A DNA stretch of 64,000 nucleotides from Pseudomonas triclosanedens. Its GTDB lineage: Bacteria > Pseudomonadota > Gammaproteobacteria > Pseudomonadales > Pseudomonadaceae. Below are positions 27,881 to 44,657 of the stretch, piece by piece (position 1 is the stretch's first letter; each line of letters starts with the position of its first letter). The notes beneath the pieces are model-generated. The model did no database searches. It worked only from the letters and a program-made list of their open reading frames with translations, and was not told where the DNA came from. The stretch lies in NCBI RefSeq assembly GCF_026686735.1, contig NZ_CP113432.1:5879001-5943000 (forward strand), written 5' to 3'. Position numbers and translations under genes: made by a program.

Positions 27881-27890
27881 GCAAAAAGAA

Positions 27891-27918
27891 ACCCGCCAAC
27901 GCTGCAACGTTGGCGGGT
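27891..27918 (-). terminator. terminator of the exopolysaccharide operon
   Basis: Stem ACCCGCCAACG/CGTTGGCGGGT with a 6-base loop, followed on the minus strand by TTCTTTTTGC. It lies about 100 bp beyond the last gene of the minus-strand operon. Confidence 0.88.
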
Positions 27919-28017
27919 CATGGGCATTGCTAGGGGAAACGCCCACCAAAAGGGTAGAGCGTCCGCACGGACGGGCGAACCCGTCCGGCGTCTTGCGAAG
28001 GCTGGGTCGCGAGTGCC

Positions 28018-29133
28018 TCAGCGGCCCACTGCGGCGCTGGTGCTTACGATGTTGGCCGACGGCAGCAACTGGCTGATGAAGCGGTTCCAGCGGGTGATGT
28101 TGGCCGGACCGATGAACACCACGTCCTGCGGCTGCATGGCGAACTCCTTGGCCAGCGCATAGGCGGTCGGGCGCTTGGCTTCCAGGTGGAAGACCTGTGC
28201 CTGGAACGCGCCCTGAGCACTGGCGGTCTGCTGCGGGTTGCCACGAATCACGTAGACCGAGTCGCCATCGGAGGTTTCCGGGGCCAGGCCGCCGGCGTTG
28301 CCGAGCACTTCGAGCAGCGACAGGCCGGTAGTGCGATAGGTGACTACCTGCGGCCGCTCCACTTCGCCCACCACGTAGACCTTCTTGCGGTCGTTATAGG
28401 GCAGGTGGATCTGGTCGCCGTTCTTCAGGTAGACGCCGCTCAGGGTGGAGCCGGTGCGGTTGAGCGCATCGACGTCGATCACATACTCGCGGCCGTCACG
28501 CTTGAGGGTCAGCCCCGACAGATCCGCCTCGCCGGCAATCACGCCAGCCTTGCTGACCGCCTGCACCAGCGTCGTCGGCGTATTGTTCAGCTCGACCTGG
28601 CCGCCGTTCTGGAAGGCACCGGAGAGCACCACATGCTGGCTGGCATAGCGCAGCACGGTGACGTCCACCTGCGGATCGACGATACCCTTCTTCCCGAGCT
28701 GGCTGGCCAGGCGCGAGCGCAACTGCGCGGGAGACTGCCCCTCGGCGCGCACCACCCCCGCATAGGGGAAGAAGATATTGCCGTCGGCGCCGACCACGCG
28801 GCCGTTGGCTTCCATCTGCTGGGTCGAGCCGGGACTGGTGAGCTCCGGGTGATCCCAGACAGTGACCAGCAGGACATCACCCGCGCCGATCAGGTAGTCG
28901 TTCTGCGGCGGACGGTAGTTGAGCAGCTCCGCAGGCACGCCGGGCAGGCTCTCGCGGGTCGCTTCCTGGCGTTGCAGCACCTGGGGCGTGATGGGCACCA
29001 GAGTGATCTGCATCCCCTCCTTCTGTGCCTCGCGTTGAATATCGGAATCCGTCATGTGCTGACCGGGGGAGAATACACAGCCTTGTAGCGCCAGACTGCC
29101 GACAACAAGACCGAACACGAACAGATTTTTCAT
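28018..29133 (-). CDS. Wza-type outer-membrane polysaccharide export lipoprotein
   Basis: A 371-residue polysaccharide export protein. The lipobox LQGC puts the lipidated cysteine at residue 19. The Poly_export domain starts at YLIGAGDVLLVTVWDHPELT (about 80-99). Two SLBB domains follow (VVLSGAFQNGGQVELNN and VYVVGEVERPQVVTYRTTG). The C-terminal helix that would cross the outer membrane is near SRFISQLLPSANIVSTSA-like residues (WNRFISQLLPSANIV). Wza-type octamers form the outer-membrane channel and work with the Wzc kinase encoded at 38.9-41.1 kb. It is the last gene of the operon, 42 bp after the initiating transferase gene. Confidence 0.93.
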   Translation of the reverse strand: MKNLFVFGLVVGSLALQGCVFSPGQHMTDSDIQREAQKEGMQITLVPITPQVLQRQEATRESLPGVPAELLNYRPPQNDYLIGAGDVLLVTVWDHPELTSPGSTQQMEANGRVVGADGNIFFPYAGVVRAEGQSPAQLRSRLASQLGKKGIVDPQVDVTVLRYASQHVVLSGAFQNGGQVELNNTPTTLVQAVSKAGVIAGEADLSGLTLKRDGREYVIDVDALNRTGSTLSGVYLKNGDQIHLPYNDRKKVYVVGEVERPQVVTYRTTGLSLLEVLGNAGGLAPETSDGDSVYVIRGNPQQTASAQGAFQAQVFHLEAKRPTAYALAKEFAMQPQDVVFIGPANITRWNRFISQLLPSANIVSTSAAVGR

Positions 29134-29175: not shown

Positions 29176-30576
29176 TCAGAACGCATTGCGATGAACGAAT
29201 CCCTTGAAGAGGGTCAGCAAGACGATTTTCAGATCCCACCAGACGGACCAGTTCTCAATGTAATCAAGGTCGTATTCGATGCGTTTCTGCATCTTTTCCA
29301 GGGTGTCTGTCTCGCCTCGCCAGCCGTTGACCTGCGCCCATCCGGTGATACCGGGCTTGACCTTGTGACGCAGCATGTAGCGGCTGACCTGGCGGCGGTA
29401 CTGCTCGTTGTGCGCCACTGCGTGAGGCCGTGGGCCAACCACCGACATATCGCCCCGGAGGACATTGAAGAACTGCGGCAGCTCATCCAGTGAAGTCCGT
29501 CGCAGGAACGCGCCCAGGCGAGTGACGCGGCAATCGTTGCGCGAGGCCTGAGTGACCTCGGCACCATCCTCCATGACCGTCATGCTGCGGAACTTCCATA
29601 CGCGGATCGGCCTTCCGTCCATCCCGTAACGGGTCTGGCGGAACAGCACGGGGCCGCGCGAGGTGAGTTTCACCGCCACGGCAATCAGCAGCATCGGCAC
29701 CGACACCAGCAGCAGGATCAGCGAAGCGAGGGCAACGTCCTCGATGCGCTTGAGCACCGCGTTGGGCCCATCCATAGGGGTGTCGAAGATGCTGATGGTT
29801 TCCAGGCCGTTGATGCTCTCGCTGCGCGCGTGCAGCAGATCGAACATGAACAGGTCGGGAATCAGGTAGACCGACACCGTAGTGTCGGACAGTTCGCGAA
29901 TCAGCTCGTTGAGCAGCGGCTCGCGGGACAGAGGCAGAGTCAGGTAGACCTTGTCGATCTGGCCGGCGCGCGCCGCCTCGATCAGCGCCAGGCGGCCGCC
30001 CTTCACCGGCACCCGCTGGTCCAGCGGCATCTGCTGCGGGCGGTCATCGTAGAAGCCCACCAGGTGCAGGCCCATCCACGGCGCATCGAGGATGGTGGCC
30101 GCCAGCCGCGCACCGATTTCGCCGGTGCCGTAGATAGCGACATTGCGGCTGTTCAGGCCGTGCCGTCGCGCCAGGCGCAGCAGGACACGCAGCAGCAGGC
30201 GATAGCCGCACATCACCAGCAGCGCGATGGCGAACCAGGCGAAGCGGCGGCCGTCGGTGAGCACACCGTGGCGCAGCGCGACGTCCAGCAGCATCACCGC
30301 GAAGAACGACAGCGACCAGTAGCTGGTGACGAGCAACGACTCGCGCAGCATCGACTCGCCGCGCCAGGAGCCATACAGCCGGTTCAGCTCGCCGAGCCAG
30401 CCGAACAGCATCACGCACAACAGAACCGATACCCAGACGCGGGAGTCCGGCATGCCGCTGCCATCGCTCAGGAGAATCGCCCCACTCACGACGATGACCA
30501 GCAGATCGAGCAGCCGGTGAGCCAGTGCGAGAAGCGACTGGTTGGCCCGCAAAATTCCCTTCGATCGAATGGACAT
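29176..30576 (-). CDS. WcaJ-type undecaprenyl-phosphate sugar phosphotransferase
   Basis: A 466-residue polyprenyl-phosphate hexose-1-phosphate transferase that starts repeat-unit synthesis by loading the first sugar phosphate, usually glucose, on undecaprenyl phosphate. Four N-terminal membrane helices (about 15-120) are followed by a Rossmann-like CoA-binding-type domain (NVAIYGTGEIGARLAATIL). A fifth membrane segment (LASLILLLVSVPMLLIAVAVKL) leads into the catalytic domain with KRIEDV, GPVLFRQTRYGMDGRPIRVWKFRSM, TSLDELPQFFNVLRGDMSVVGPRPH and a C-terminal KIVLLTLFKGF. This is the WcaJ/PslA architecture. Glucose is the likely first sugar, but galactose cannot be excluded. Confidence 0.92.
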   Translation of the reverse strand: MSIRSKGILRANQSLLALAHRLLDLLVIVVSGAILLSDGSGMPDSRVWVSVLLCVMLFGWLGELNRLYGSWRGESMLRESLLVTSYWSLSFFAVMLLDVALRHGVLTDGRRFAWFAIALLVMCGYRLLLRVLLRLARRHGLNSRNVAIYGTGEIGARLAATILDAPWMGLHLVGFYDDRPQQMPLDQRVPVKGGRLALIEAARAGQIDKVYLTLPLSREPLLNELIRELSDTTVSVYLIPDLFMFDLLHARSESINGLETISIFDTPMDGPNAVLKRIEDVALASLILLLVSVPMLLIAVAVKLTSRGPVLFRQTRYGMDGRPIRVWKFRSMTVMEDGAEVTQASRNDCRVTRLGAFLRRTSLDELPQFFNVLRGDMSVVGPRPHAVAHNEQYRRQVSRYMLRHKVKPGITGWAQVNGWRGETDTLEKMQKRIEYDLDYIENWSVWWDLKIVLLTLFKGFVHRNAF

Positions 30577-30686: not shown

Positions 30687-31562
30687 TCATGGGCGGGCGT
30701 CCAGCAGCAGTTGCTGCAGATAGCGCCCGTAGCCGGTCTTGCCCAGGCGCTCGGCCTGAAGGGCCAGACGCTCGCTGGAAAGCCAGCCCTGCTGGAATGC
30801 GATTTCCTCCAGGCAGGCGACCTTCAGCCCCTGCCGTGCCTCGATGGTCTGCACGAAGTGCCCTGCCTCCATCAGCGACTCGTGGGTTCCGGTATCCAGC
30901 CAGGCGAAGCCGCGCCCCAGCAGGCTCACGCGCAGCTCGCCAAGGGCCAGGTAGGCGTTGTTGACGTCGGTGATCTCCAGCTCGCCGCGCGCCGAGGGAC
31001 GGATGTTCCTGGCGATCTCCACCACGCGGTTGTCGTAGAAGTACAGGCCGGTTACCGCATAGTTCGAACGCGGGGCGCGAGGCTTCTCCTCGATGGAAAT
31101 CACCCGCCCGCCGTCATCGAACTCGACCACCCCGAAGCGGCCCGGGTCGGCCACCTGGTAGCCGAACACCGTGGCGCCACGCTCCCGCGCGGCGGCCTCG
31201 CGCAGGGTGGCGGTGAAGCTCTGGCCGTAGAAGATGTTGTCGCCCAGCACCAGGCACACCGAGTCGTCGCCGATGAACGACTCGCCGATCAGGAATGCCT
31301 GCGCCAGGCCATCCGGCGACGGCTGTACCGCGTACTGCAGACGCACGCCGAACTGTTCGCCATCGCCCAGCAGGGCGTGGAAGTTGGGCAGGTCGGCAGG
31401 CGTGCAGATCAGCAGGATGTCGTCGATGCCGGCGAGCATCAGCACCGACAGCGGGTAATACACCATCGGTTTGTCATAGATCGGCAGCAGTTGCTTGGAC
31501 ACCCCGAGCGTAATGGGGTGCAGCCGGGTGCCGGAGCCCCCGGCGAGGATGATGCCTTTCAT
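30687..31562 (-). CDS. rmlA: glucose-1-phosphate thymidylyltransferase
   Basis: A 291-residue RmlA/RfbA enzyme making dTDP-glucose from dTTP and glucose-1-phosphate. The nucleotide-binding signature [18 protein letters not shown] opens the protein and [17 protein letters not shown] follows; [11 protein letters not shown] near residue 107 is also typical. RmlB, RmlC and RmlD are not in this window, so later steps must be encoded elsewhere. In context its product, after RmlB, could feed the aminotransferase at 43.6 kb to give a dTDP-amino-dideoxyhexose. It is separated by 110 bp from the downstream WcaJ-like gene. Confidence 0.95.
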
Positions 31563-31601: not shown

Positions 31602-32693
31602 CTACTCGAGTGGATCGAAGCGCGGCAGGTAGTCCGCGCGGTCGGCGAGAAAGGTGTCGATCAGGCTGGACAGCCGCAGGGCTGACAGATCCCACGAATA
31701 CCGTAGGAAGTTCTCCAGCCCGGCGCGGCGCAGGCTGTCACGCAGCTCGCCGTCCAGCAGGACGCGGCGCATCGCCTCGGCCAGCGCCTGGGTGTCGCGC
31801 GGGTCGAAGTACAGCGCCGAGGCGCCCAGCACCTCGGGGATCGACGCGCTGCTGGCGGCGATCACCGGGCAGCCGCACGCCTGCGCCTCCAGCGGCGGAA
31901 TGCCGAAGCCCTCGTAGAGCGATGGGAACACGAACGCCGCCGCCCCCCGGTACTCCTCGATCAGTCGTGTGTCGTCGATGCGGCCGAGCCAGCGCACTCG
32001 CTCGCCCTGGCCGCTGGCCTGCAAACGGCAGTCGGCGAAACTGCGGCCGGCGGAGCCGACGATGTGCAACTCGACATCCAGGTCATGCAGCAATCCGAAC
32101 GCCTCCACCATCCGCGCGAAGTTCTTGTGCGCCGCCTGCGACGACACCGCCAGCAGGTAGGGCCGCGCGGGTGTGGCCACGGCGGCGGAACGAAACTCGC
32201 CGGAGACCGCATTGCCGATGACATGGATGCGCTGCTTCGCAAAACGGTAGTACGAGGCTATTTCCTGGCGGGAGAACTCACTGACGCTGATCAGCGCCAG
32301 CACCCGCCTCAGCATCAGTGGCGTCAGCACGCGATACAGCGCGCGAAAGCGCCAGGAAAAGCTCTCCGGGTGGCGCACGTAGGCGATGTCATGGTGGGTC
32401 GCCAGTTGCCGCCCGTAGGCCAGCGGTGCGGTGTTGCACAGCGACACCAGCAGCGGCCGGCCATTGCGCGCCAGCCACAGCGGCAGGTCGACCTGTTCCC
32501 AGAGATGTCCGCGGTTGCGGCCGATGCGCTCGACCCGCAGTTGCCGGGCAACGTCCTCGCGGACCAACGGGCCGGGCGGCGCAACGAAATGCACGTCGCT
32601 GCGCAGACGCGCCAGCGACAGGGAGATCTGCTCGGCGAAGCGCTGCACGCCGCTCAGTTCCTGGGATAGAAAACGCGCGTTGATGACGATCAT
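31602..32693 (-). CDS. family-4 glycosyltransferase
   Basis: A 363-residue GT-B glycosyltransferase of family GT4. ATG 32693 is preceded by GGAGGG. The N-terminal domain opens MIVINARFLSQELSGVQRFAEQ; the C-terminal donor domain has YLLAVSSQAAHKNFARMVEAF and the E-x7-E retaining motif EGFGIPPLEAQACGCPV (about 283-299). The closest look-alikes are mannosyl- or rhamnosyltransferases of surface-polysaccharide clusters. No membrane segment is seen, so it acts at the cytoplasmic face on the lipid-linked unit. It lies 16 bp after the polymerase-hydrolase gene. Donor and acceptor cannot be fixed. Confidence 0.88.
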   Translation of the reverse strand: MIVINARFLSQELSGVQRFAEQISLSLARLRSDVHFVAPPGPLVREDVARQLRVERIGRNRGHLWEQVDLPLWLARNGRPLLVSLCNTAPLAYGRQLATHHDIAYVRHPESFSWRFRALYRVLTPLMLRRVLALISVSEFSRQEIASYYRFAKQRIHVIGNAVSGEFRSAAVATPARPYLLAVSSQAAHKNFARMVEAFGLLHDLDVELHIVGSAGRSFADCRLQASGQGERVRWLGRIDDTRLIEEYRGAAAFVFPSLYEGFGIPPLEAQACGCPVIAASSASIPEVLGASALYFDPRDTQALAEAMRRVLLDGELRDSLRRAGLENFLRYSWDLSALRLSSLIDTFLADRADYLPRFDPLE

Positions 32694-32709
32694 GGAGAAA
32701 CCCTCCGGG

Positions 32710-35334
32710 TCAGCGCAGCGACAACTGATAGCCCGAGGCGCTGCGCAACAGCGTCGGAGCGCTATCGATGGGAATGCTGGCCTGGCACGCACCGCCGCCC
32801 TCAGGGCAGTCCCAGGGGACTTTCCGGCCCTGGCTGGTGCTGACGCCGTCGAAGTCCCGCAAGCGCCAGATGGTGTCCGACCCGCTGGGCTGGCTGGTGA
32901 TCTTCAGGTTCTGTTCATGGCCCAGCGTCCACGCCACCAGCACCTCGTCGCCTGCCTTGGCGAAGCGCAGCAGGTAGACATCCGGGTCCTGGCTGGGCAC
33001 CCGGCCGACGAAACGGTAGTGGCCGATGATCCCGGCGACGCTGGCCATCGCGTGGTAGGCCGGCTTGGCCTGGCCACTGGCGCCGAGCAGGCCGAAGTTG
33101 TGTTCCATGTCGCGGCGGTCGATGCCGTCGTCCACCAGGTCGTACCACCAGGAACCTTTCACGTTCGGCAGGCTGCGCAGCAGGAAGTAGGCGCGCGCCA
33201 GGTAGGCCGCCTGGCGTTCGCGGCTGATGCCGCAGGCACCGTCGTGGGCCGGCCAACTGAACTCGGTGAAGTACATCGGCACCGGCTTGCCGGCGACCTG
33301 TTCGAAGCGCTGGTCGACGCCCTTGAACCATTCCAGCCAGTTCTCCGGCGTCGACAATTCACCCTCGCAGTACACCGAGGGATGCAGCGACAGCCCATCG
33401 GCCACCTCCAGCAGGCCACCGGTCAGCAGTCGCTCGGCGAAGCCCTGGCGGATACCGCGCAGCGTCACCGCGCCGGCGATCACCTTGGCTTTCGGGTCTT
33501 CTTCGCGGATCACCTTGGCGGTGGCGCGAACCAGGGTCAGGTAGTCGTCGCTGAAGTCCTTGTCGGTGGGGTTTTCCACATCCCATTCGTTCCAGACTTC
33601 ATAGATCGCCACCTGCCCCTTGAAACTGCGCACCACGTGGCGCACGTAGCGCAGGAACGCATCGCGGGTGGCGTCGTCGCGCGGCTTTCTGCTGCCGTAG
33701 AACTGGTTTTCCAGCCCCAGGATCAGCAGCGTGTCGATGCCCAGCGCACGGGTGCTGCGCATCTGCGCGCGCCAGCTTGCCGGAATCGACAGCACACCGG
33801 GCCGGACTTCGACACTGGACCAGAAGGCGTCGTCGCGGAACGACCGGATGCCAGCTTCTGCGGCCAAGCGATTGATCCCGTCGCGATTGCCCGGGCGCTC
33901 GTTCTGATGAGTGCTGGCGCCGACAATGAACTCCGCCTCGCCGAGGTCCGCCGTGGCGGTCTCCTTGGCCAGCGCCGATGGCGAGTGGCCCGCCATGCCC
34001 AGCAGCACGGCGCCGCCCAGCAACAGACTCAGCACACGCCCCACGCCCTGCAGGCGCCAGGCTTGCGGCGCCGGCGGGGTGATGGCTTCGTCCGGCAGGC
34101 GCAGGGCGCGACCGATGGCCAGACCGAGGAACAGGCTGGGCACCTGCGCTTCCAGCACATCGCTGGTCCACCCCACCAGCAGGACGCAGTAGGCGATTCC
34201 CAGCAGCGCGCGCGCCTCGCCGCCCGGCTGGCGCTGCAAGCGCATCAGCATCGGCAGGGCCAGCACATACAGCGCCACACCAGCCACACCGAACAGGCAC
34301 CAGAGATAGAGCAGCGAATTGTCCGCCACCGCGAGCTGCTCGACGCCGAATATCGGAAACGCCCCGTAGGCGCTGCCGGTCATGCCCAGGCCCGCGCCGG
34401 TGTACGTCCAGCCGTTGTAGTCGATCACCCGGATCAGGTTGGGCCAGGTGCTGACCAGGCGATCCACCATCGAACCGATCAGGCTGTCGCCGGAAGAACT
34501 GACCACGTAGGGATCGACGCCGACGAGCAGGCCATAGAGCGGCAGCGCCAGCGCGCCGAGCACCACCACCAGGGCCGCCAGCAGGAAGGCCAGGCGCTGG
34601 CGGGCGAAGCTCATCACCACCAGGGCGACGAGGAAGGCCCCGGCAGAAGATTTGTTGGTAGTGAGCACGATGCCGGCCAGCGCCACCAGATAGATCAGCC
34701 CGCGCAGCAGCAGCGGCAGGCGGAACGAACCCAGGTACAGACTGAAGATCGCCAGCATGATCGCCAGGCTCGACGACATCCGCGAGAAGCCGGCGATGCG
34801 GTCCAGACCGTAGGCGCTCCAGGCGCGGTTGCCGCTGATCTCCACCCCGCCCATCGAGTAGGTGTAGCCCTTCCAGGACACCGTGGTGAGCAGGTCCAGG
34901 GCTATGCCAGCCAGCGAAGCCGCGAGGCAGAAGGCGATCACCCAGCCAACAGTCTTGCGGTGCATTTCCAGGTAGCTGCCACAGAGCAGGCCGAACAGCA
35001 GCGGCGCGTAGATGAACACGCTGAAGGCACCGGCCTTCCACTCCGCGCCATGCAGGTGGCCGACCAGCAGCGAGGCCAGCGCCAGCAGCAGCAACAGCCA
35101 CAACCCGCGCTGCTGCGGACGGGTGATCAGTTCCCAGGCCACCGCCACCATGCAGGCGACCTTCGGCAGGTAGACCAGGGCCGACAGGCCCGACTGGTCG
35201 GCATAGAAACGCAGCGCGCCGCTGAAAGTCTCAACCAGCAGCAGCGACACCAGCACCGCCAGCGCCAGCAGCGAGCGGTCGAAGGTCACCCCGCGGGAGG
35301 GCTCAAAGCGTGGAAACGGGGATTGCAGATCCAT
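32710..35334 (-). CDS. Wzy/O-antigen-polymerase-like protein fused to a PslG/GH39-like glycosidase
   Basis: A single uninterrupted 874-codon frame. Residues 1-450 form a polytopic membrane domain of about ten helices, with a long periplasmic loop around 273-340, as in Wzy/O-antigen ligase proteins. A further helix at about 432-448 leads into a periplasmic TIM-barrel domain (about 465-775). Its catalytic acids are visible: acid/base E583 in YEVWNEWDV and nucleophile E691 in MYFTEFSWP, 108 residues apart, much as in PslG (E165/E276, recalled). A beta-rich tail (775-874) completes it. It starts 32 bp inside the preceding GT4 gene. The likely role is polymerising repeat units and trimming or editing the chain in the periplasm. 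A fusion is seen; coupling of activities is inferred. Confidence 0.88.
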   Translation of the reverse strand: MDLQSPFPRFEPSRGVTFDRSLLALAVLVSLLLVETFSGALRFYADQSGLSALVYLPKVACMVAVAWELITRPQQRGLWLLLLLALASLLVGHLHGAEWKAGAFSVFIYAPLLFGLLCGSYLEMHRKTVGWVIAFCLAASLAGIALDLLTTVSWKGYTYSMGGVEISGNRAWSAYGLDRIAGFSRMSSSLAIMLAIFSLYLGSFRLPLLLRGLIYLVALAGIVLTTNKSSAGAFLVALVVMSFARQRLAFLLAALVVVLGALALPLYGLLVGVDPYVVSSSGDSLIGSMVDRLVSTWPNLIRVIDYNGWTYTGAGLGMTGSAYGAFPIFGVEQLAVADNSLLYLWCLFGVAGVALYVLALPMLMRLQRQPGGEARALLGIAYCVLLVGWTSDVLEAQVPSLFLGLAIGRALRLPDEAITPPAPQAWRLQGVGRVLSLLLGGAVLLGMAGHSPSALAKETATADLGEAEFIVGASTHQNERPGNRDGINRLAAEAGIRSFRDDAFWSSVEVRPGVLSIPASWRAQMRSTRALGIDTLLILGLENQFYGSRKPRDDATRDAFLRYVRHVVRSFKGQVAIYEVWNEWDVENPTDKDFSDDYLTLVRATAKVIREEDPKAKVIAGAVTLRGIRQGFAERLLTGGLLEVADGLSLHPSVYCEGELSTPENWLEWFKGVDQRFEQVAGKPVPMYFTEFSWPAHDGACGISRERQAAYLARAYFLLRSLPNVKGSWWYDLVDDGIDRRDMEHNFGLLGASGQAKPAYHAMASVAGIIGHYRFVGRVPSQDPDVYLLRFAKAGDEVLVAWTLGHEQNLKITSQPSGSDTIWRLRDFDGVSTSQGRKVPWDCPEGGGACQASIPIDSAPTLLRSASGYQLSLR

Positions 35335-36538
35335 GACGGACTCCACGGTCGAGCAGGGTATGGCGCAAGAGGGCTTCGTATTCGTCGAGCATCCGCTCGA
35401 CGCTGAGCATCGATTCCACGCTGGCCCGTGCGCGCGAGGCCAGCCCCAGGCGCAAGCCCGGGTCCTGCGCCAGGCGCTGGATCGCATCGCGCAGGGAGTC
35501 GGGCCGGTCAGGCTCGCAGAGCAGGCCGTTGAATTCGTCGCGGACGATTTCCACCAGCCCGCCACGCGCCGAGGCGATCACCGGTACGTGATGGGCACAG
35601 GCTTCCAGCGCCACCAGGCCGAACGGTTCCTGGCTGAGCGTGGGAACCACCGCGACATCGATGGTGCGGAAGAAATCCCCCGCCTTGCGGTAGCCCACGA
35701 AATGCACGTGCCGGGGATCGGCCCGCGACTTGAGGGCGTTCACGTACTCGGCATCGCCGCGCCCGGCGATCAGCAGCGACGCATCGCAGCGAGTCTCCTG
35801 GAAGGAGTCGATCAGCCATTCCAGCCCCTTGTTGGGCGCCAGCGTGCCGATGAAGCCGAAGCGCAGCGGCCGATGCGCCGCCACCACCGCCGGCTCGTCG
35901 TTCTGCGGGGCGAACGGCGAAGCGTTGTAGATCACGTGGGGCCGGCTGTCCCGGAAATAGCCGGCATCCAGCAGCACGTCGAGCTGGAAGCGGCTGACGC
36001 CCACAACCACATCGACCGTCGCCGAAGCCTTGGCATGGGAGCGCCGCAGCAGCGCGCAGGAGCCGCATTGCTGCTCGCAGTGGCGGCCCTTGTTGAAGCG
36101 CATCCCGCGCGGGCAGATGAGGTACTGGTCATGGAGTATCTGCACGATGGGCAATCCGGCATCGCGGATCGCGTCCCACACGGCAATCGACCAGCCCGAC
36201 AGGTTGTGGCACACCACCACATCCGGCTCGCTCTGCTCCAGCACATCCGCCAACACCTCGCGCATGCCCCGGTTGTAGCGGTCGAGCGCGTGCCAGGCCA
36301 GGCGCAGCAGCGGACCGGGGCGGCGTCCGGAAAACGGCCAGTAGAGATTGCGCATCCCGGCGCGCAGCACCGGCACACCATTGAGCGACTCGCTCTGCAC
36401 GCCGGATTCCGGGCCGGTGCTCAGCACCTGCACCTCATGGCCGCGGCGCTTGAGACCCTCGACCATCGACTGCAGCATCACCTCCGCGCCGCCACCGAAG
36501 TAAGGCGCGTACAGCGTGTTGAGGAACAGAATCTTCAT
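35303..36538 (-). CDS. family-4 glycosyltransferase
   Basis: A 411-residue GT-B glycosyltransferase of family GT4. The N-terminal acceptor domain begins MKILFLNTLYAPYFGGGAEVM, the usual glycine-rich loop after strand 1. A cysteine-rich insert CPRGMRFNKGRHCEQQCGSC (about 140-160) is seen in a subset of GT4 enzymes and may bind a metal. The donor domain has RFGFIGTLAPNKGLEWLI and the retaining E-x7-E motif SQEPFGLVALEA. It overlaps the GT2 gene upstream by 4 bp and the fused polymerase gene downstream by 32 bp, so the three are translationally coupled. Confidence 0.88.
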   Translation of the reverse strand: MKILFLNTLYAPYFGGGAEVMLQSMVEGLKRRGHEVQVLSTGPESGVQSESLNGVPVLRAGMRNLYWPFSGRRPGPLLRLAWHALDRYNRGMREVLADVLEQSEPDVVVCHNLSGWSIAVWDAIRDAGLPIVQILHDQYLICPRGMRFNKGRHCEQQCGSCALLRRSHAKASATVDVVVGVSRFQLDVLLDAGYFRDSRPHVIYNASPFAPQNDEPAVVAAHRPLRFGFIGTLAPNKGLEWLIDSFQETRCDASLLIAGRGDAEYVNALKSRADPRHVHFVGYRKAGDFFRTIDVAVVPTLSQEPFGLVALEACAHHVPVIASARGGLVEIVRDEFNGLLCEPDRPDSLRDAIQRLAQDPGLRLGLASRARASVESMLSVERMLDEYEALLRHTLLDRGVRHGSAIPVSTL

Positions 36539-37533
36539 AGCGGGTACGCCCTGCTCATGCCCAGCGCGCCGGACTCGCCGTCACGGATGGCACGCAGCAG
36601 CAGTTCAAGGCGCCCCTCGCGGCCGTGCCGGCGGGCGAAAAAGTGCAAAAGGCGCAGGAACACCCAGCGGTTGAAGCGGTACATCAGCGGCGAGCGCACC
36701 CAGAGGTTCTTGTCGAACCACGCCTGGTTGCGTGCGGCGTAGTACGCGCGCAGATCGGAGCTGCCCAGCAGGTAGGTTTCATAGATGTTCGAGGTGCGCT
36801 CCTTGATGTTCCAGGAGTGTTCCAGGTCGTCCAGCCCGGCCTCGGGCACGAGGTACAGGTGCCCGCCCGTGGCGTTGATACGGAAGGTGTATTCGGTGTC
36901 GTCCGCATACAGCACCAGCTCTCGGCGCGGCAGGCCGATGCGCTCGATCAGTTGCCGGTGCGCCAGCAGCCCGCCGTAGTAGGCGAATGGCAACTCCAGC
37001 AGCGGCGCCACCGGGCGCGGGCGCGGCCTGCCCCACGGGGTACGGCGCCAGAGCTTGTAAGGCAACTGGTGGACATGGAAACCGAAATAGCTGGAGCGCG
37101 GCGGCGTAATGAAGCGGCTCGGCACCCCGGCGACGACGTCGGCCTGATGTTCCGGGCGAAAGCCCAGTACCGCCGTACGGTCGGCGCCGTGGTGCTGCAC
37201 GCACTCCAGCAGACGCTGCTTGAGCAGAGGGAACGAGCCCGGCGCCGGCGCGTTGTCGTCGTCCATCAGCCAGATGTATTCGCAACCGGTCTTGAGCGCC
37301 GCCTCGATGCCCACGCAGTAGCCGTTGGCCGAGCCGGTGTTGCTGTCCAGTTCGATCACCTGCACGCGGTTGGGCCAGAGCATGAACAACTGGTCCAGCT
37401 CGGCCACCGAGGCGTTGCTGACGACGATGGCGCAAGCGATGTCCTTCTCGCGGAAGGCGCGCGCCAGCAGCTCTTCCAGGTACTCCAGGCGGTCGCCGTA
37501 GGTCAGCGTCACCAGCACGGTCGATGCGGTCAT
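36535..37533 (-). CDS. family-2 glycosyltransferase, rhamnosyl/galactofuranosyl-like
   Basis: A 332-residue GT-A enzyme. ATG 37533 (MTASTVLVTLTYGDRLEYL) follows a GGAGAG site; longer starts would overlap the rfaH-like gene. The donor-binding DxD region reads WLMDDDNAPAP (about 89-99), preceded by NTGSANGYCVGIEAAL, a combination typical of GlfT/rhamnosyltransferase-type GT2 enzymes. It is soluble or peripherally attached and probably adds a sugar to the undecaprenyl-linked unit. Stop and next start overlap as ATGA. The donor is unknown. Confidence 0.86.
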   Translation of the reverse strand: MTASTVLVTLTYGDRLEYLEELLARAFREKDIACAIVVSNASVAELDQLFMLWPNRVQVIELDSNTGSANGYCVGIEAALKTGCEYIWLMDDDNAPAPGSFPLLKQRLLECVQHHGADRTAVLGFRPEHQADVVAGVPSRFITPPRSSYFGFHVHQLPYKLWRRTPWGRPRPRPVAPLLELPFAYYGGLLAHRQLIERIGLPRRELVLYADDTEYTFRINATGGHLYLVPEAGLDDLEHSWNIKERTSNIYETYLLGSSDLRAYYAARNQAWFDKNLWVRSPLMYRFNRWVFLRLLHFFARRHGREGRLELLLRAIRDGESGALGMSRAYPL

Positions 37534-37567
37534 GATGCGGGGCTCTCCTTCGTCCTTCATCGGGCGC

Positions 37568-38074
37568 TCAGGCCCGCCATCCTTCGCCATCGGCCGCCGA
37601 AAGACGGCTCAGTGGCACACGCACGCGCTGCTCGCGCTGCAGCAGGTTGAGCAGGATCAGCGCGCGCTCGGCGCCGTCGTCGCAGAGGAAGATCGCGTCC
37701 ACTTCGCAGGCACCGGCGCAACGCACCCGCACCGTCTGCCCATGCTGGAAGCGCGAGGCCGGACGCTCGGGCAGCGCCAGCAGACGCCGGCGGATGTCCT
37801 CCACCAGCTCGTCGGCCACCGGCAAGGGCTGCGGGCCGAAGCTGACGATGCGCGACACCCCCCGGGTGGAACGGATCGGGAACCAGTTGTCGTGCTGCTG
37901 ATCCAGGCGGATGAACAGGTAGCCGGGGAACAGCGGCTGCGGCCGCGCGCCCTGCCCCACCACCGGGCGGTAGCAGGCGAAGCCCTGGCGCGCCAGGTTC
38001 TCTTCGGCGCGCAGCTCCTGGTGCGGTTTGGTCTGGATCAGGTACCAGCGGTGCAGCGGTTCGGTGGCGCTCAT
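37568..38074 (-). CDS. rfaH-like: RfaH/NusG-family transcription antiterminator
   Basis: A 168-residue NusG paralogue. The NGN domain shows RWYLIQTKPHQELRAEENLARQGFACYRPV (9-38) and the polymerase-contacting LFPGYLFIRLD (about 48-58). The C-terminal KOW-type domain carries GQTVRVRCAGACEVDAIF (about 112-129) and ends RVRVPLSRLSA. RfaH proteins load on RNA polymerase at ops DNA elements and stop premature termination in long surface-polysaccharide operons. Two ops-like elements occur in this operon's own leader (46654 and 46741), so the protein probably acts on its own operon. Its ATG overlaps the WbqC-like gene by 4 bp. Confidence 0.9.
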   Translation of the reverse strand: MSATEPLHRWYLIQTKPHQELRAEENLARQGFACYRPVVGQGARPQPLFPGYLFIRLDQQHDNWFPIRSTRGVSRIVSFGPQPLPVADELVEDIRRRLLALPERPASRFQHGQTVRVRCAGACEVDAIFLCDDGAERALILLNLLQREQRVRVPLSRLSAADGEGWRA

Positions 38075-38832
38075 GATTCGTACTCCTCGACACCAGGCCG
38101 GACGACGACAGGGGACGGCGCCGGGCGATCGACGGAATAGCGGCCGAGCAGGCGCCGCATTTCGTCCGGCTGGTTGAACATCAGCACGTCGATGATCGAC
38201 AGGCTGGGCACGAAGTTGTCGTCGAACTGCCGGTAGCTGAACTCGTCCATGCGCAGGAAACGCAGCTCGACGCCGTGGGAATGGAAGACATCCGGCGAGT
38301 ACAGGTGCCGGCCGCCCTCGGGGTTCAGGTAGACATTGCCGCCGCTGCGCTTCACCACGTGGATCAAGCGCTGCTCGCGGTCGATGTCGCCGGCCAGGCC
38401 CATATCGGAGAACCGCGCTATCGGCGTATCGATCTCCAGGTAGCGGCAGATGCGCCGGATCGAATGCTCGGTGAAGTGCGCCAGGTTGCGCTCCGGGTTT
38501 TCGAGGATCTCCTCCACCAGCGGGAACACCTGCGCGTAGCACGGCGCCCGGTGGTAGGCGTGGCGGATGGTGTGCAGCAAGCGCTGGCTGGTGAGCCGCA
38601 TCTGCTCGCTGAGCAGCCTCTGGTTGATCGCCTGGCTGCGCGAACCCTGCTCCAGCGGCACGCTGAACTGCCACGGGCGACCACCGACCAGCAGCCGGTT
38701 GCGATTGATCCAGCCACGCCGGGTGTACTGCAGGCTGTCGCCGAGAATGAACAGGCTGCTGGCGGCGATCAGTTGGAAGTACCCCAGGTAGGGGAACAGG
38801 TACGGCTGCATCAGGCTGACGATGTGGACCAT
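38071..38832 (-). CDS. WbqC-family protein
   Basis: A 253-residue WbqC-like protein. The family signature is the N-terminal MVHIVSLMQPYLFPYLGYFQLIAASSLFILGDSLQYTRRGWINRNRL, with QPYxFPYxGYFQL and QYxRxxWxNRN. Members occur in O-antigen, capsule and exopolysaccharide loci, often near amino-sugar genes, and may transfer an amino acid or acyl group to amino sugars; no reaction is firmly known to me. ATG 38832 is the first start that keeps this motif intact. It follows the Wzc gene by 22 bp and overlaps the rfaH-like gene. Confidence 0.85.
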   Translation of the reverse strand: MVHIVSLMQPYLFPYLGYFQLIAASSLFILGDSLQYTRRGWINRNRLLVGGRPWQFSVPLEQGSRSQAINQRLLSEQMRLTSQRLLHTIRHAYHRAPCYAQVFPLVEEILENPERNLAHFTEHSIRRICRYLEIDTPIARFSDMGLAGDIDREQRLIHVVKRSGGNVYLNPEGGRHLYSPDVFHSHGVELRFLRMDEFSYRQFDDNFVPSLSIIDVLMFNQPDEMRRLLGRYSVDRPAPSPVVVRPGVEEYES

Positions 38833-38854: not shown

Positions 38855-41074
38855 TCAGTCCCGGTTGTCGTACCGGTAGGCGTAGGCACCGTAGTCGTAG
38901 GCGGCGGTCGAGGCCTTGCGCTTGACTCCATTGAGGATCGCGCCCTGCAGATGAATCCCGTTCTGCCCCAGGCGGCGGCGGGCGGTATCGATCTCGCTGG
39001 CCGGGCTCTGGCCGAAACGGGTGACCAGCAGGCAGATGCCGCACAGCCGGCCGACCAGCGCGGCGTCGGTCACCGCCAGCACCGGCGGGGTATCGACGAT
39101 CACCAGGTCGTACAGCGCCGAAGCGTCGCGCAGCAGTTGCGCGAAGTTCTCGTGCATCAGCAGCTCGGACGGATTGGGCGCGGCAAAGCCGCAGGAGATG
39201 AAGTCCAGCTCCGGCACTTCGGTCGGCAGGATCACCTCGCTCAGCGGGCGATGGGCGCTCAGTGCATCGGACAGGCCGTGGCGCGGCGTCAGGCCGAACA
39301 CGCGGTGCAGGTAGCCTTTGCGCATGTCGGCGTCGATCAGCAGGGTGCGCTGCCCGGACTGGGCGATGATCGCCGCCAGGTTGCTGGAGACGAACGACTT
39401 GCCCGCGCCCGGCGCCGGGCTGGTGAGCATCACCACGTTGTTGCGCGCTTCCAGCAGGGCGAAGTGCAGGTTGGTGCGCAGGCTGCGCAGCGCCTCGTTG
39501 GCGAGGTCGCCCGGATTCGCCGCGGCGAGCAGCTTGGGCGTATGCCCGGCGAGGTCGCCCTTGCGCTCCTTCTCCAGGCGCTCCTGCTGGCGCGAGTAGG
39601 GCACGGCGGCGAGCACCGACAGCCCGAGTTGCTCGATCGCTTCGGGGTTCTCCACGCCACGGTAGAACGCCTGGCGCAGGAACAGGATGCCCAGGGCGAG
39701 GCAGAAACCGAACAGGGTGGCGAGCAGCACGATGATCTTGCGCATCGGCTTGGCCGGTTGCTCGACGTTGGCCTGGGCAGTGTCGATCACCCGCACGTTG
39801 CCGATGGTGCCGGCGCGGATGATGTCCTGCTCCTGGGCCTTGTTCAGCAGGGAGGTGTAGGTCTGCCGGGTGACCTGCATGTCACGGGAGAGACGCAGCA
39901 GTTCCTGCTGGGTGGCCGGCAGGGTCTGGATGCGCTTCTGCAGTTGCTGCTTGCGCTCGTCGAGGCTGCTCATCTGCTTGAGCAGCGCCTGGTAGGCCGG
40001 GTGGCTCGGGGTGTAGAGGCGGTCGTACTCGGCACGCTTGAGCTTGAGCTCGGACAACTGGTTGTCGATGCCCACCACCTGATCCAGCACGCCGCGGGTC
40101 TCGACACTGATATCGGCAGACTTGGCGCTGGTCTGGTAGGCGTTGTAGGCGGCCTCGGCGCGCTCCAGCTCCAGGCGAACAACCGGCAGTTGCGAGCGCA
40201 GGAACTGCAGGCGCTGGGACGCTTCGGCGGAACTGCGCTCGACGTTCTGCAGCACATAAAGGTGGCTGATCTTGTCGAGGATGCGGTCGGCCTGCTGCGG
40301 ATCGGGATCCTCCAGGGTCAGGTAGACGATGCCCGAGTCCTTGCCGGCCTCACCGACCTTGAGCAGCTTCTGGTAACCCAGGGTGGTGGTCAGCAGGCGA
40401 TTGCGGGTGAGCACGAACTCGGTACCCGGACGGGCCACCAGCTCATCCACCTCGATGGTGAACCCCTTCTCGATGATGGTCTTGCTCAACTGGCCGCGCA
40501 GAAGCAGCTCACCGTCGGCATTGAGCAGGTGGTACGCATCGCCGCCGTCGGCGACCAGGGTGAGCGGCTCGCCCAGGTACTCCTCCGGCACGTCCAGTTG
40601 GAACACCTTGATCTGCTCGCCACCCCAGCCATACGAGTCCAGGCCGAGCCACGGCGTGGCGAGGGTCTGGTCCGGCGCCGGCTTGAAGCGCCGCGCCAGG
40701 TAGTCGCCCACCAGAGGCAGGTGCCTGGGCTTGGCGACGATGTCGAGCTTGAGCAGCTCGACCGCCTTGCCGAGCACCGCGCGCGACTTCAGCAGTTCGA
40801 TCTCGGTGGCCGCGAGTGACACCGAGTCGGGCCGGTTGATGACCTCGGGCGTACCGTTCAGGCCGTTCTTCTTCTGCTCGATCTGGATCATCGCCCCCGA
40901 TACGTAGATCGGGGTGGCGACCACCGCATAGAAGATGCCGAGAACGGCGAACAGCCCGGTCACGGCGATGATCATCTTCTTGTGGTCGAACAGCAGGCGC
41001 AGCAGGCCGGCGACGTCGATACGGGTGTCCTGGAAGGTTTCCAGGGACGAGCGGGGCATGACACTCATGGACAT
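38855..41074 (-). CDS. Wzc-type polysaccharide copolymerase and tyrosine autokinase
   Basis: A 739-residue bacterial tyrosine kinase. An N-terminal Wzz domain (about 15-130) has helix one in MIIAVTGLFAVLGIFYAVVA, followed by a long periplasmic coiled coil (about 270-430) and a second helix (about 447-465, KIIVLLATLFGFCLALGI). The cytosolic kinase has Walker A PAPGAGKS (about 553-560), Walker A' LLIDADMR, Walker B LVIVDTPPV and a tyrosine-rich tail YDYGAYAYRYDNRD. Phosphorylation cycling of the tail controls chain length and export through the Wza channel. ATG 41074 lies only 4 bases from GGAGG; ATG 41068 is an equally plausible start. Confidence 0.93.
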   Translation of the reverse strand: MSMSVMPRSSLETFQDTRIDVAGLLRLLFDHKKMIIAVTGLFAVLGIFYAVVATPIYVSGAMIQIEQKKNGLNGTPEVINRPDSVSLAATEIELLKSRAVLGKAVELLKLDIVAKPRHLPLVGDYLARRFKPAPDQTLATPWLGLDSYGWGGEQIKVFQLDVPEEYLGEPLTLVADGGDAYHLLNADGELLLRGQLSKTIIEKGFTIEVDELVARPGTEFVLTRNRLLTTTLGYQKLLKVGEAGKDSGIVYLTLEDPDPQQADRILDKISHLYVLQNVERSSAEASQRLQFLRSQLPVVRLELERAEAAYNAYQTSAKSADISVETRGVLDQVVGIDNQLSELKLKRAEYDRLYTPSHPAYQALLKQMSSLDERKQQLQKRIQTLPATQQELLRLSRDMQVTRQTYTSLLNKAQEQDIIRAGTIGNVRVIDTAQANVEQPAKPMRKIIVLLATLFGFCLALGILFLRQAFYRGVENPEAIEQLGLSVLAAVPYSRQQERLEKERKGDLAGHTPKLLAAANPGDLANEALRSLRTNLHFALLEARNNVVMLTSPAPGAGKSFVSSNLAAIIAQSGQRTLLIDADMRKGYLHRVFGLTPRHGLSDALSAHRPLSEVILPTEVPELDFISCGFAAPNPSELLMHENFAQLLRDASALYDLVIVDTPPVLAVTDAALVGRLCGICLLVTRFGQSPASEIDTARRRLGQNGIHLQGAILNGVKRKASTAAYDYGAYAYRYDNRD

Positions 41075-41099: not shown

Positions 41100-42029
41100 T
41101 CAGCGCGCCTGAATCGGGTTCAGCCGCTTGAGCAGGTTCATTCCGTGATTGCCGACCAGCAGCAGGAACGCCTCGATCTTGCGCGGCAGCGGAATCGAGG
41201 CCATCGACAGGCGGCAGACCTGGACCAGGAAGTACTCGTTGAGCGCCCGGTCACCGATGCGCTGGTAGTAGCGCGCCAGGCAGTAGTAGGTGTGCAGGGT
41301 CATCTGTTGCTGCACGCGATCGGCCTGCATGGAGAAAATGCCGCCCTTGTGCACGCGGTAGGCAGCCGGGCGGATTTCGCCAAGGAACTTGCCCTTGCCG
41401 TAGGCTCCCAGCAGCGACCACCAGCAGAGGTCGACCATGCGTGTGGTGAGCAGCTCCGCGGGCATCTCGGTGAGGACGTTGCGAAAGCAGGTAGTCAGCG
41501 TGGAAATCGGCCGCGCCTGTTGCAGCTCCAGGCGGCTGGCATCGCGGCGGAACTTGCCGGTGAGCTGTTGCGGCTTGAGCACGCCGTCCTCGTTGAAGGT
41601 GTAGGCGTCGTGATAGGTGATCACGTAGTCCGGGTTTCTTTCGAGGAAGTCGACCTGGATCTGGAGCTTGCGCGGATCGGTCCAGAAGTCGTCGCCCTCG
41701 CAGTAGGCGATGTAGCGGCCGCGTGCCTTGCGGAATACCGGCAGGCCGTGGGAAAGGCCCTTGGAGTACTGATTTTCCTTGTGGAAGATCGGCTTGATGA
41801 TGTGCGGGTAGCGCGCGGCGTAGTCGGCGATCACCTCGGCGGTGCCGTCGGTGGAGGCGTCATCGTTGACCAGCACCTCGAAGCGGAAGTCGGTGACTTG
41901 TTCGAGGAAGCTGTCCAGCGTGCGGCCGATGTAGTTCACCTGGTTGTAGGCCAGGCACACGACGCTCAGCAGTGGTTCGGGGGCTTCCGGCCAGTTGGAG
42001 AGGATCTGCAGCTCTGAGCGGATATCCAT
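41100..42029 (-). CDS. family-2 glycosyltransferase
   Basis: A 309-residue GT-A glycosyltransferase of family GT2. The start ATG 42029 gives MDIRSELQILSNWPEAPEPLLSVVCLAYNQVNYIGRTL, followed by the nucleotide-sugar motif FEVLVNDDASTDGTAEVI (about 50-66) and the metal-binding CEGDDFWTDPRK (about 109-120). The C-terminal part is helical with an amphipathic RLSMASIPLPRKIEAFLLL. It resembles WcaA/EpsE-like transferases that extend lipid-linked units at the inner face of the membrane. It sits between the Wzx and Wzc genes, 2 bp from the Wzx stop, so it is part of the same message. Sugar specificity is unknown. Confidence 0.87.
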   Translation of the reverse strand: MDIRSELQILSNWPEAPEPLLSVVCLAYNQVNYIGRTLDSFLEQVTDFRFEVLVNDDASTDGTAEVIADYAARYPHIIKPIFHKENQYSKGLSHGLPVFRKARGRYIAYCEGDDFWTDPRKLQIQVDFLERNPDYVITYHDAYTFNEDGVLKPQQLTGKFRRDASRLELQQARPISTLTTCFRNVLTEMPAELLTTRMVDLCWWSLLGAYGKGKFLGEIRPAAYRVHKGGIFSMQADRVQQQMTLHTYYCLARYYQRIGDRALNEYFLVQVCRLSMASIPLPRKIEAFLLLVGNHGMNLLKRLNPIQAR

Positions 42030-42031
42030 GT

Positions 42032-43561
42032 CTAGACACTCGGCTTGTGGGACGGTTTGAACAGGCGCAGCAACGCCGGAGCGGAGCCGACGCCCACCAG
42101 GAACAGGGTGATCAGGCCGCAGGTGGCCAGCGCCAGCAGCAGCGACAGACGCCCGCCGGAGCGGGCCAGCAGCGCGTAGAAGGGTTCGCTGAGCAGCAGG
42201 CCGGCGACGCTCAGCGCAGCGATCTGCAGGGTGTCGCGCAGCCACGGGGCATGCAGGTCGTCACCGAAGCTGCGATGCACGATCGCCGGCCAGATCAGGA
42301 AGGCCACCAGGCGCAGGCCAAACCAGCACAGCGCGACGCCGACCACGCCGAACAGGTAGGCGCTGGCGATCACCAGAGGGATGCTCACCAGGGCGGAAAC
42401 CACGCTGTACCAGACGTGCATGCGCAGTTGGCCGTGGGCGTACTGGAGGTAGAACTGGAAGCTGCCGACCGCCATCAGGCCTGCGCCGAGCACATACCAG
42501 ACCAGCACCGGCCGGCACCAGCGCGCGGCCTCGGCGTCGCCACTCCAGGCGAGGATCAGGTCGTGGCCGTGGGCGGCGATCACCGCCACCATCGGGAACA
42601 TCAGCACGCAGACGAAGCGGTTGGCGTTCAGGTAGAGCTGCTGCATGTCGGCGTGGCGGCCCTCGGCGACCAGCATGGTCATGCGCGGCAGCAGGCCCTG
42701 CGCCAGCGGGTTGACCAGGCTGAGGATGCCGCCGCTGACCAGCGCCACCAGCGAGAAGTAACCGTAGTCGCGCAGCGGCAGCAGGCTCGACAGCAGTACC
42801 TTGTCCAACTGGGTGAGGACGATCCACAGGCCCGAAGTGAAGAACATGCCCAGGGCGAACGGCAGAACCGGGCGCAGTGTGTCCCAGCAGAAGCGGGTCA
42901 GCAGGCGCACGTCCATCCACAGGTAGGCCTTGCCGCCCAGCAGCAGGGTTTCCAGCAGCGACACCGCGACCTGGAATTCGAAGAACACCAGTGGGTCCTG
43001 GCTCACCTCGGCCACCAGGAACAGGCCACCGAAGTAGCGCAGGGTCGTGATGAAAACGTTGATCCCGTTGATCCAGCCGTGCAGCTCCAGCCCCTGCAGC
43101 GCACTGCGGTAGAGGGTGCCGTACAGGCGCAGGGCAACCAGCAGTCCCATCAGGCTGACGCACTGCGCGACCAGTTGCGGGCTGAGGGTCTGGACGTTCA
43201 GCCAGTGGCCGGCGATCCAGCCGCTGCCGGCGTACACCGCCAGGCTGCTGAGCAGCGTCAGCGGCAGCAGGATCAGCTCGAAGGAACGCAGCAGGCTCGC
43301 CTGGCTGTATGCCTCGCCCTGCATGCCCCGGCCGTGGGCGACCTGCCGCACCAGCGCCGGCGAGAGGCCGACGTCGAGCAGCAGGAGCCAGGTCTGCAGC
43401 ACCGCGAAGAAGCCGATCAGGCCATACGCCTCCGCCCCCAGGTGGCCGAGGTAGAACGGCTGGATCAGGATGCCGATGACGATCGCGTACGCCTGCCCCG
43501 TGTAGTTCAGCAGGGTGTTGCGGATCATCGACAGCGACCGCTTTCGCGCCATGATCGACAT
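42032..43561 (-). CDS. Wzx-type polysaccharide flippase (MOP superfamily)
   Basis: A 509-residue membrane protein with about 12-14 predicted helices and the usual N-terminal feature of polysaccharide flippases (NTLLNYTGQAYAIVIGILIQPFYLGHLGAEAYGLIGFF). It would carry the undecaprenyl-diphosphate-linked repeat unit across the inner membrane for polymerisation by the Wzy-like domain encoded at 32.7-35.3 kb. The ATG at 43561 lies 2 bp beyond the aminotransferase stop; the MARK start at 43552 is an alternative. The charged loops between helices (for example ARQVAHGRGMQGEAYSQA-like VRQVAHGRGMQG) are normal for the family. Substrate unknown. Confidence 0.9.
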   Translation of the reverse strand: MSIMARKRSLSMIRNTLLNYTGQAYAIVIGILIQPFYLGHLGAEAYGLIGFFAVLQTWLLLLDVGLSPALVRQVAHGRGMQGEAYSQASLLRSFELILLPLTLLSSLAVYAGSGWIAGHWLNVQTLSPQLVAQCVSLMGLLVALRLYGTLYRSALQGLELHGWINGINVFITTLRYFGGLFLVAEVSQDPLVFFEFQVAVSLLETLLLGGKAYLWMDVRLLTRFCWDTLRPVLPFALGMFFTSGLWIVLTQLDKVLLSSLLPLRDYGYFSLVALVSGGILSLVNPLAQGLLPRMTMLVAEGRHADMQQLYLNANRFVCVLMFPMVAVIAAHGHDLILAWSGDAEAARWCRPVLVWYVLGAGLMAVGSFQFYLQYAHGQLRMHVWYSVVSALVSIPLVIASAYLFGVVGVALCWFGLRLVAFLIWPAIVHRSFGDDLHAPWLRDTLQIAALSVAGLLLSEPFYALLARSGGRLSLLLALATCGLITLFLVGVGSAPALLRLFKPSHKPSV

Positions 43562-43562: not shown

Positions 43563-44657
43563 TCAAACCGCCTCGGCGACCCGGCCGCTTTCCATCAGCA
43601 GCACATCGATCACCGCGCGCTGTACCTCCTGCGGCAGACTCGGATAGAGCGGCAGGCAGAGGATGCGCTGGCTGAGTTCGCGGGAAAGCTGCTGAGGCTG
43701 CTGCGGCGCCAGGTAGTCGAGGGTGTCCAGCGACGGGTAGAAGTAGCGCCGAGGATTGACCCCGACGGCATTCAGGGCGGCCCGCACGCGCAGTACCTGC
43801 TCCTCGTCGCGCAGGCCGATCGGGTAGTAGCTGTTGTTCTGTCGCGCGCCCGCCTGCACGATCTGCAGGTCGTAGTAACCGCCCAGAGCGGCGGTGTAGC
43901 GCGCGGCGATCTCCTCGCGCTGGGCAAGGATGGTCTCGATGTCGTCCAGCACGCACAGGCCCATCGCGGCGGAGAACTCGTTGAGTTTGGCGTTGATTCC
44001 CAGGCCGACGATCTTGTCCACGTCGGCGATGCCGAAGTTGCACATCAGGCGGATCTGCCGGGCCAGGTCGTCGTCGGAGGTGACGATGGCGCCGCCCTCG
44101 ATGGTATGGAACAGCTTGGTGGCGTGGAAGCTCAGGGTGCTCACGTCGCCCCAGGCCAGCACAGAGCGGTCGCGGTAGCGCGAACCGAAGGCATGGGCGC
44201 CGTCGTAGATCACCTTCAACCGGTTACGCTGCGCCACCGCCTGGATTTCCTCCACGGCGCAGGGGTTGCCGAACACGTGGGTGGCAACGATGGCGCTGGT
44301 GTCCGGCGCCAGGCTGGCTTCGATCAGTTGTGGGTCGAGGTTCCAGGTTTGCGCATCGATATCGGCGAAACGCGGCCGGATGCTTTCCCATTGCAGCGTG
44401 CTGCTGGTGGCGACGAAGCTGAACGGTGTGGTCACCGCGCTGCCGGTGACGCCCAGCGCGCGGTACGCGACCTGCAGGGCGATGGTGCCGTTGCAGGTGA
44501 GGATCACATGGCGCACACCCAGGTAGTCCTGCAGGCGCTCTTCCAGCTCGGTGACACAGGGGCCGTGGTTGGTGATCCAGCCCGAGGCATAGATCTTTTC
44601 CACGTACGCCTTGAACTTCTCCAGATCACCCAGATAAGTCTTGGTCACATTGATCAC
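43563..44657 (-). CDS. DegT/DnrJ/EryC1-family sugar aminotransferase
   Basis: A 364-residue PLP enzyme that aminates a keto-dideoxy nucleotide sugar. No ATG gives the conserved N-terminus; GTG 44657 with an upstream AGAGGGA site gives MINVTKTYLGDLEKF. The catalytic Lys is K181 in SFHATKLFHTIEGG and D152 in IYDGAHAFG contacts the PLP ring. Motif GWITNHGPCVTELEERL and HVFGNPC resemble VioA-like enzymes that make dTDP-4-amino-4,6-dideoxyglucose, which would fit the RmlA gene in this operon; FdtB/QdtB-like 3-amination is the alternative. It lies between the oxidoreductase and Wzx genes. Confidence 0.88.
   Translation of the reverse strand: MINVTKTYLGDLEKFKAYVEKIYASGWITNHGPCVTELEERLQDYLGVRHVILTCNGTIALQVAYRALGVTGSAVTTPFSFVATSSTLQWESIRPRFADIDAQTWNLDPQLIEASLAPDTSAIVATHVFGNPCAVEEIQAVAQRNRLKVIYDGAHAFGSRYRDRSVLAWGDVSTLSFHATKLFHTIEGGAIVTSDDDLARQIRLMCNFGIADVDKIVGLGINAKLNEFSAAMGLCVLDDIETILAQREEIAARYTAALGGYYDLQIVQAGARQNNSYYPIGLRDEEQVLRVRAALNAVGVNPRRYFYPSLDTLDYLAPQQPQQLSRELSQRILCLPLYPSLPQEVQRAVIDVLLMESGRVAEAV

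Follow-up and report, generated by a model that had tools for sequence, protein, structure and literature searches.

A Pseudomonas exopolysaccharide operon joins a Wzy/WaaL-type membrane domain and a PslG-like GH39 domain in one gene

Results

In a 64,000-nucleotide stretch of Pseudomonas triclosanedens DNA (contig NZ_CP113432.1, positions 5,879,001 to 5,943,000; the whole stretch is called the window below), the minus strand from 32710 to 35334 holds a single unbroken frame of 874 codons plus TGA (translation of the complement; ATG at 35332-35334, TGA at 32710-32712), in which a Wzy/WaaL-type membrane domain is joined to a PslG-like domain of glycoside hydrolase family 39 (GH39). A first-pass annotation made from the letters of the same DNA had described a polymerase-like and a glycosidase half in one open frame, leaving the strand unstated, and our translation agrees with it. 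Residues 1-411 (34102..35334; all parts of the gene are on the minus strand) constitute the Wzy/WaaL-type domain, containing 12 transmembrane segments by hydropathy and larger loops at residues 151-185 and 267-345. A translated linker, predicted to be cytoplasmic, spans residues 412-429 (34048..34101) and leads to residues 430-456 (33967..34047), likely a former signal peptide that is now internal, where signal peptidase I may cut, after Ala456. The PslG-like GH39 domain, predicted to be periplasmic, occupies residues 457-874 (32713..33966), its barrel starting at ~466. The first-pass annotation was right about the Wzy-like character of the membrane domain but not about its extent, which is ~1-411 rather than ~1-450, with 430-456 as a separate hydrophobic segment.

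A 991-codon open frame runs antisense to the fusion over the same DNA (32431-35406, plus strand), probably an effect of GC content, so that open-frame length alone is no evidence for the fused gene. The full-length fusion was found without a stop in 16 of the 25 genus genomes, counting that of the window, at 77-100% identity, the 16 genomes being one per species and eight of them single-contig, with P. nitroreducens, P. pseudonitroreducens and P. nicosulfuronedens among the carriers. Substitutions were mostly synonymous throughout, with ratios of non-synonymous to synonymous rates (dN/dS, Nei-Gojobori script) of 0.28 in the Wzy half, 0.39 in the linker (residues 413-431) and 0.24 in the GH half. 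Given this full-length conservation and low dN/dS, the fusion is a genuine gene, carried by one lineage so far. The locus Wzx was found in the same 16 genomes, and thus no carrier of the locus within the genus has wzy and GH39 apart.

The C-terminal half shows the GH39 fold, with the PslG structures 4zn2, 5bx9 and 9g17 as its closest matches, in keeping with the PslG/GH39-like barrel of the first-pass annotation, which fits over ~466-874; identity to PslG is ~17-18%. PF01229 gave no match for the whole 874-residue protein, and the isolated domain reached 23.2 bits against a gathering score of 26. At E<=0.01, two of the 26 aligned GH39 members matched PF01229, seven Cellulase (PF00150) and nine DUF5722, and a precomputed PF01229 annotation is present on nine of the 11 fusions in the protein database. 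In GH39 enzymes the two catalytic glutamates sit where strands 4 and 7 of the (beta/alpha)8 barrel end. Both acids were found where they had first been placed: Glu583 in WNEW (codon 33586..33588) is invariant in 26 of 26 aligned sequences (the window's and 25 split GH39s; for this and the other alignments, among them that of 25 Wzy sequences, we selected some of the available sequences), and Glu691 in FTEF (codon 33262..33264) is kept in 25 of 26. They coincide in the profile alignment with two PslG glutamates, E165 and E276 by our own count, the pair mutated in experiments described in a section of PMC6813494. The C-terminal half is probably a PslG-type GH39 endoglycosidase, an activity predicted from these residues and the fold. 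In the one divergent sequence, the GH39 paralogue L053 (G256 C47), the counterpart of Glu691 is Gly (TGM), and this standalone copy may be inactive.

For the membrane half, the 12 segments and two loops found by our hydropathy script agree with the 10-14 transmembrane helices and large periplasmic loops given for Wzy proteins in a section of PMC12004945. The Wzy_C profile matched 11 of the 25 aligned members at E<=1 (best 2.6e-7), the window member being without a match; a sequence search of the PDB with the Wzy profile gave no match, and the closest fold is WaaL (7tpg) at 14% identity. The locus holds Wzx, Wzc and Wza, with no second polymerase candidate among the open reading frames (ORFs) scanned, and the membrane half is probably the Wzy polymerase of the locus.

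At the join, residues 430-448 form a 19-residue hydrophobic stretch (mean hydropathy 1.77), followed by Pro452 (-5), a small residue (A/S/T/G) at 454 (-3) and Ala456 (-1), each present in 16 of 16 fusions. The same pattern occurs in 11 of 11 proteins from the database, a set partly shared with those 16 and containing the window's own. Segment 430-456 matches the signal peptides of split GH39s in position and in character, a hydrophobic core preceding a cleavage-like site. The columns around the join are the least conserved in the protein (0.72-0.73 versus 0.90 overall). In an AlphaFold2 model of the full chain, both folds were returned, but segment 430-456 was of low confidence and no fixed interface between the domains was predicted (predicted template-modelling score, pTM, 0.53).

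To place the fusion among its relatives, we surveyed 298 genomes of the family, 88 of which matched; one unbroken match over both halves occurred only in the 16 genomes of the window's own genus. Part of the family genomes without the fusion were fetched, and the counts of split loci refer to that part. In 35 of 35 fetched non-fused loci with both domains, these are encoded by two adjacent genes in the same direction, so that the survey of fused versus split genes proposed in the first-pass annotation found the fused form in 16 of 25 genus genomes and two genes in these 35 loci. The split GH39s of all 35 loci begin with a signal-peptide-like start, and the two genes share a frame in 16 of the 35. 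Five of the 43 unique split GH39s fail our -3/-1 script (L039, L053, L049, L050 and L063), the motif search having ended the segment too early in L039 and L053; L082 and L083, where the motif is absent, are unscored, and the junction work leaves out L017 (a 65-residue chance match), L052 (a 100-base dummy stretch) and L064 and L065 (contig ends). Programmed read-through of the split genes was set aside: several Stutzerimonas have a single in-frame TGA between the genes, but the GH39 there has its own ATG and signal-like start. In one other genus, six fetched loci (L051 and L056-L060) have the Wzy but gave no match to GH39; their genomes yielded one match each in the family survey, and the gene after Wzy in L051 is an acyltransferase-SGNH gene. 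Four fetched loci have GH39 without this Wzy. As a separate observation, L054 carries at 2044-3426 (minus strand) a GH39 of the fusion's family between two GT4 genes, with no Wzy match in the fetched stretch.

In trees built per domain (62 and 61 rows), the 16 fusions form one clade with support 100/100; both trees are rooted at the midpoint, have several long branches, and leave out the named copies of fused genomes (L066-L072 and L074) and exact duplicates. In the protein database, queries with the full-length protein and with its Wzy half brought up 11 fusions and nothing else, all from Pseudomonas and counting the window's own; these represent 11 protein clusters of 871-876 residues. The GH half gave the same 11 plus 12 proteins of 484-1069 residues with no Wzy part listed. 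Each of these searches scored ~8000 candidates and excluded proteins below 0.55 of the query length, so that they do not cover most split genes and may have overlooked distant fusions. Among 369 genomes of the class, the window's own genome was accompanied by 11 weak matches, all on the GH side. The fusion probably arose once, in the Pseudomonas nitroreducens lineage.

The operon around the fusion reads, from 45107 to 28018 on the minus strand, DegT, Wzx, GT2, Wzc, RfaH, GT2, GT4, fusion, GT4, RmlA, WcaJ and Wza. Ahead of the fusion lie a DegT/DnrJ aminotransferase ORF (43563..45107; true start further in), the Wzx flippase (42032..43561; PF01943), a GT2 glycosyltransferase (41100..42245), the Wzc co-polymerase/tyrosine kinase (38855..41074), an ORF (37568..38674; true start internal) with an RfaH-type antiterminator at residues ~201-368 (TIGR01955, 155.2 bits, cut-off 144.5), a GT2 glycosyltransferase below the rhamnosyltransferase cut-off (36535..37590), and a GT4 glycosyltransferase (35303..36538) whose end overlaps the fusion start by 32 bases. 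Behind it follow a GT4 glycosyltransferase (31602..32693; ORF listed to 32792, likely ATG at 32693), RmlA (30687..31562; TIGR01207, 502.6 bits, cut-off 360.65), a WcaJ-type undecaprenyl-phosphate glucose phosphotransferase (29176..30576; TIGR03023, 555 bits, cut-off 410.75) and the Wza exporter (28018..29133). A terminator-like hairpin of 13 pairs with a T-rich tail (27890..27919, minus strand) stands after wza; given that the region has 15 terminator-like sites versus 9.5 (standard deviation 3.6) in shuffles, it is a consensus match only. Rfam gave no match in the window. The RfaH-type antiterminator lies inside the operon it may serve, and the ops-like pattern GGCGGTAGNNTG was not found in the window.

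The operon order is kept in eight of eight named fused loci (L066-L072 and L074; tblastn). The named split loci (L073 and L075-L081) have the wzy and GH39 pair flanked by GT4s, with the second GT2 ~6 kb further on in L075-L078 and L080; the stretches fetched for L073 and L075-L080 showed no RmlA, WcaJ or Wza. A 496-residue frame at 44711-46201 (minus strand), which we read as a flavin-dependent oxidoreductase (GGAGPAG near its start) and which had no Pfam match at 1e-3, may be the first operon gene, an internal MTDQSF being its likelier start. Beside the operon are a PAS-GGDEF gene (47187-48158, minus strand) and a PAS-GGDEF-EAL gene (49489-51921, plus strand); EPS273-A, of the EPS273 locus of Pseudomonas (Stutzerimonas) stutzeri 273, is a diguanylate cyclase too (PMC5532660, Table 1).

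Discussion

The fusion is a new architecture of known parts. The reading we favour as a whole, to which we give somewhat better than an even chance, is a single fusion in which an internal former signal peptide exports the barrel and is partially cleaved by signal peptidase. In an exopolysaccharide operon of the Wzx/Wzy/Wzc/Wza type and akin to the EPS273 locus, wzy would have been joined to the next gene, for a PslG-like GH39 endoglycosidase, by loss of the stop between them, the hydrolase signal peptide being retained in the chain. The 12 helices of the Wzy half would leave its C-terminal end in the cytoplasm, so that segment 430-456 would run from inside to outside like a signal peptide and, as helix 13, place the barrel in the periplasm. 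That this segment exports the barrel is likely, and we lean towards its being cut at least partly, signal peptidase I acting on at least some molecules after Ala456. One gene would then yield equal amounts of polymerase and hydrolase, the latter in tethered and free forms as with full-length and processed PslG, and the hydrolase would trim or clear chains, plausibly at the beta-glucosidic bond made by the polymerase. The fusion would set where and in what ratio both activities occur, and release would be controlled through the cleavage site.

Wzy usually joins chains through the first sugar, with inversion. Since the WcaJ score lies well above its cut-off, the repeat should begin with glucose, and if joining follows the usual course the GH39 half may cut the bond made by the Wzy half. 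We regard as rather doubtful, though worth stating, the fuller proposal that partial cleavage sets the share of glycosidase kept at the exit for chain-length editing versus that freed to degrade polymer, the bond hydrolysed being the polymerase's own beta-Glc linkage in a WcaJ-primed repeat.

Several points weigh against the favoured reading. The topology depends on the count of 12 helices, which was obtained with a hydropathy script at a cut-off that we chose and includes two pairs of overlapping windows. Segment 430-456 presents an in-to-out hydrophobic stretch and then a -3/-1 site, a rule that our controls show to be unspecific by itself: it holds in 16 of 16 fusions at 45 columns of the protein, and five of the 12 other helices have a -3/-1 site within 12 residues of their end. 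Proline at -5 in all 16 narrows the 45 columns to two, residue 456 and, within the barrel, residue 727, so that the combined motif arises once by chance in the fusion protein. dN/dS is 0.97 over residues 451-457, leaving most of them unconstrained, and the segment could be a plain 13th anchor helix. The direction from split to fused rests on parsimony and on two very long-branch standalone outgroup GH39s.

The strongest alternative, which we hold to be a real but lesser prospect, is that the fusion stays uncut and helix 13 tethers GH39 at the periplasmic mouth of the polymerase in a 1:1 complex, coupling cleavage to polymerisation and setting chain length or freeing stalled chains. The frame is kept in every genus genome with the locus Wzx, residues 430-448 are long and hydrophobic enough that they could span the membrane, and a section of PMC6813494 reports that in P. 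aeruginosa it is the full-length, inner-membrane PslG that favours Psl synthesis. The conserved Pro-x-[ASTG]-x-Ala site argues against such a tether, as do the variable, low-confidence linker and the lack of a fixed predicted interface. The six GH39-less Wzy loci likewise suggest that the pairing is dispensable for polymerisation there. Chain cleavage at the polymerase exit, as put forward in the first-pass annotation, is possible, but the signal-peptidase-like site makes a hydrolase permanently held at that exit less likely.

The membrane half could instead be a WaaL-like ligase, the fusion coupling a glycan ligase to a hydrolase. WaaL is indeed its best fold match, but Wzy and WaaL belong to one fold family, and the locus has Wzx, Wzc and Wza with no other polymerase among the ORFs scanned. 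We consider a ligase improbable, even with the likely homologous EPS273-K labelled an O-antigen ligase (PMC5532660, Table 1). Slightly less probable again is largely separate production of the halves, in which translation from an internal start near residue 432 would give a GH39 with a signal peptide of its own and the long frame would be incidental. An ATG stands there in nine of 16 fusions, mostly after CAGGGC, with GTG or TTG nearby in some others, but the codon is unconserved (CTG in L004 and L007), signal peptides begun at those ATGs would lack a positive N-terminal charge, the linker ahead of them is under protein-level constraint, and no stop intervenes between the halves in 16 of 16. 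An error joining two genes, be it in sequencing or the frameshift or assembly error named in the first-pass annotation as grounds for refuting the fusion, is ruled out by the 16 unbroken genomes and has practically no chance of being true.

Returning to the favoured reading, the role in synthesis of the hydrolases in many exopolysaccharide loci is unclear, the two forms of PslG being an example. With hydrolase and polymerase fixed together in one gene and what looks like a cleavage site between them, this role becomes testable by point changes, and a GH39 without known substrate is tied to a defined polymerase. Our literature searches, which covered open-licence papers, showed no description of a Wzy-GH39 fusion. 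The fusion may be another bacterial example of a single precursor that supplies both an inner-membrane protein and a periplasmic enzyme. FbcH, the Bradyrhizobium cytochrome b/c1 precursor, combines a polytopic with a periplasmic protein, and the internal signal sequence that connects them is cleaved; that cleavage has reportedly been shown by experiment, whereas ours is deduced, and the proteins are unrelated. WaaL, whose acceptor is lipid A-core, has no hydrolase domain.

PslG of P. aeruginosa is a separate protein, whereas here the GH39 domain is joined to Wzy. Sections of PMC6813494 place full-length PslG in the inner membrane and a shortened form in the periplasm, and report that membrane PslG is important for Psl synthesis, that surplus periplasmic PslG accompanies less Psl and that free periplasmic PslG degrades the polymer. 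Loss of PslG or of its activity alters the location of Psl and leaves cells linked in chains (PMC9075953, in part), and PslG cleaves after the glucose of the repeat (PMC11912335, in part). The closest parallel in gene order is the EPS273 locus, whose order R(DegT)-Q(Wzx)-P(GT2)-O(Wzc)-M(RfaH)-L(GT1)-K-J resembles that of the window when labels and letter order, rather than sequences, are compared (PMC5532660, Table 1); by tblastn, the named Stutzerimonas loci show the DegT-to-GH39 part of this order. Table 1 of that paper has an N gene, not found in the window, and lists no WcaJ, RmlA or Wza, all of which the window contains; the deletions made in that study were of HI and O, not of J or K. 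There, K (O-antigen ligase, 417 residues) and J (glycosyl hydrolase, 445 residues) are two genes, whereas in the window a single fused gene stands in their place.
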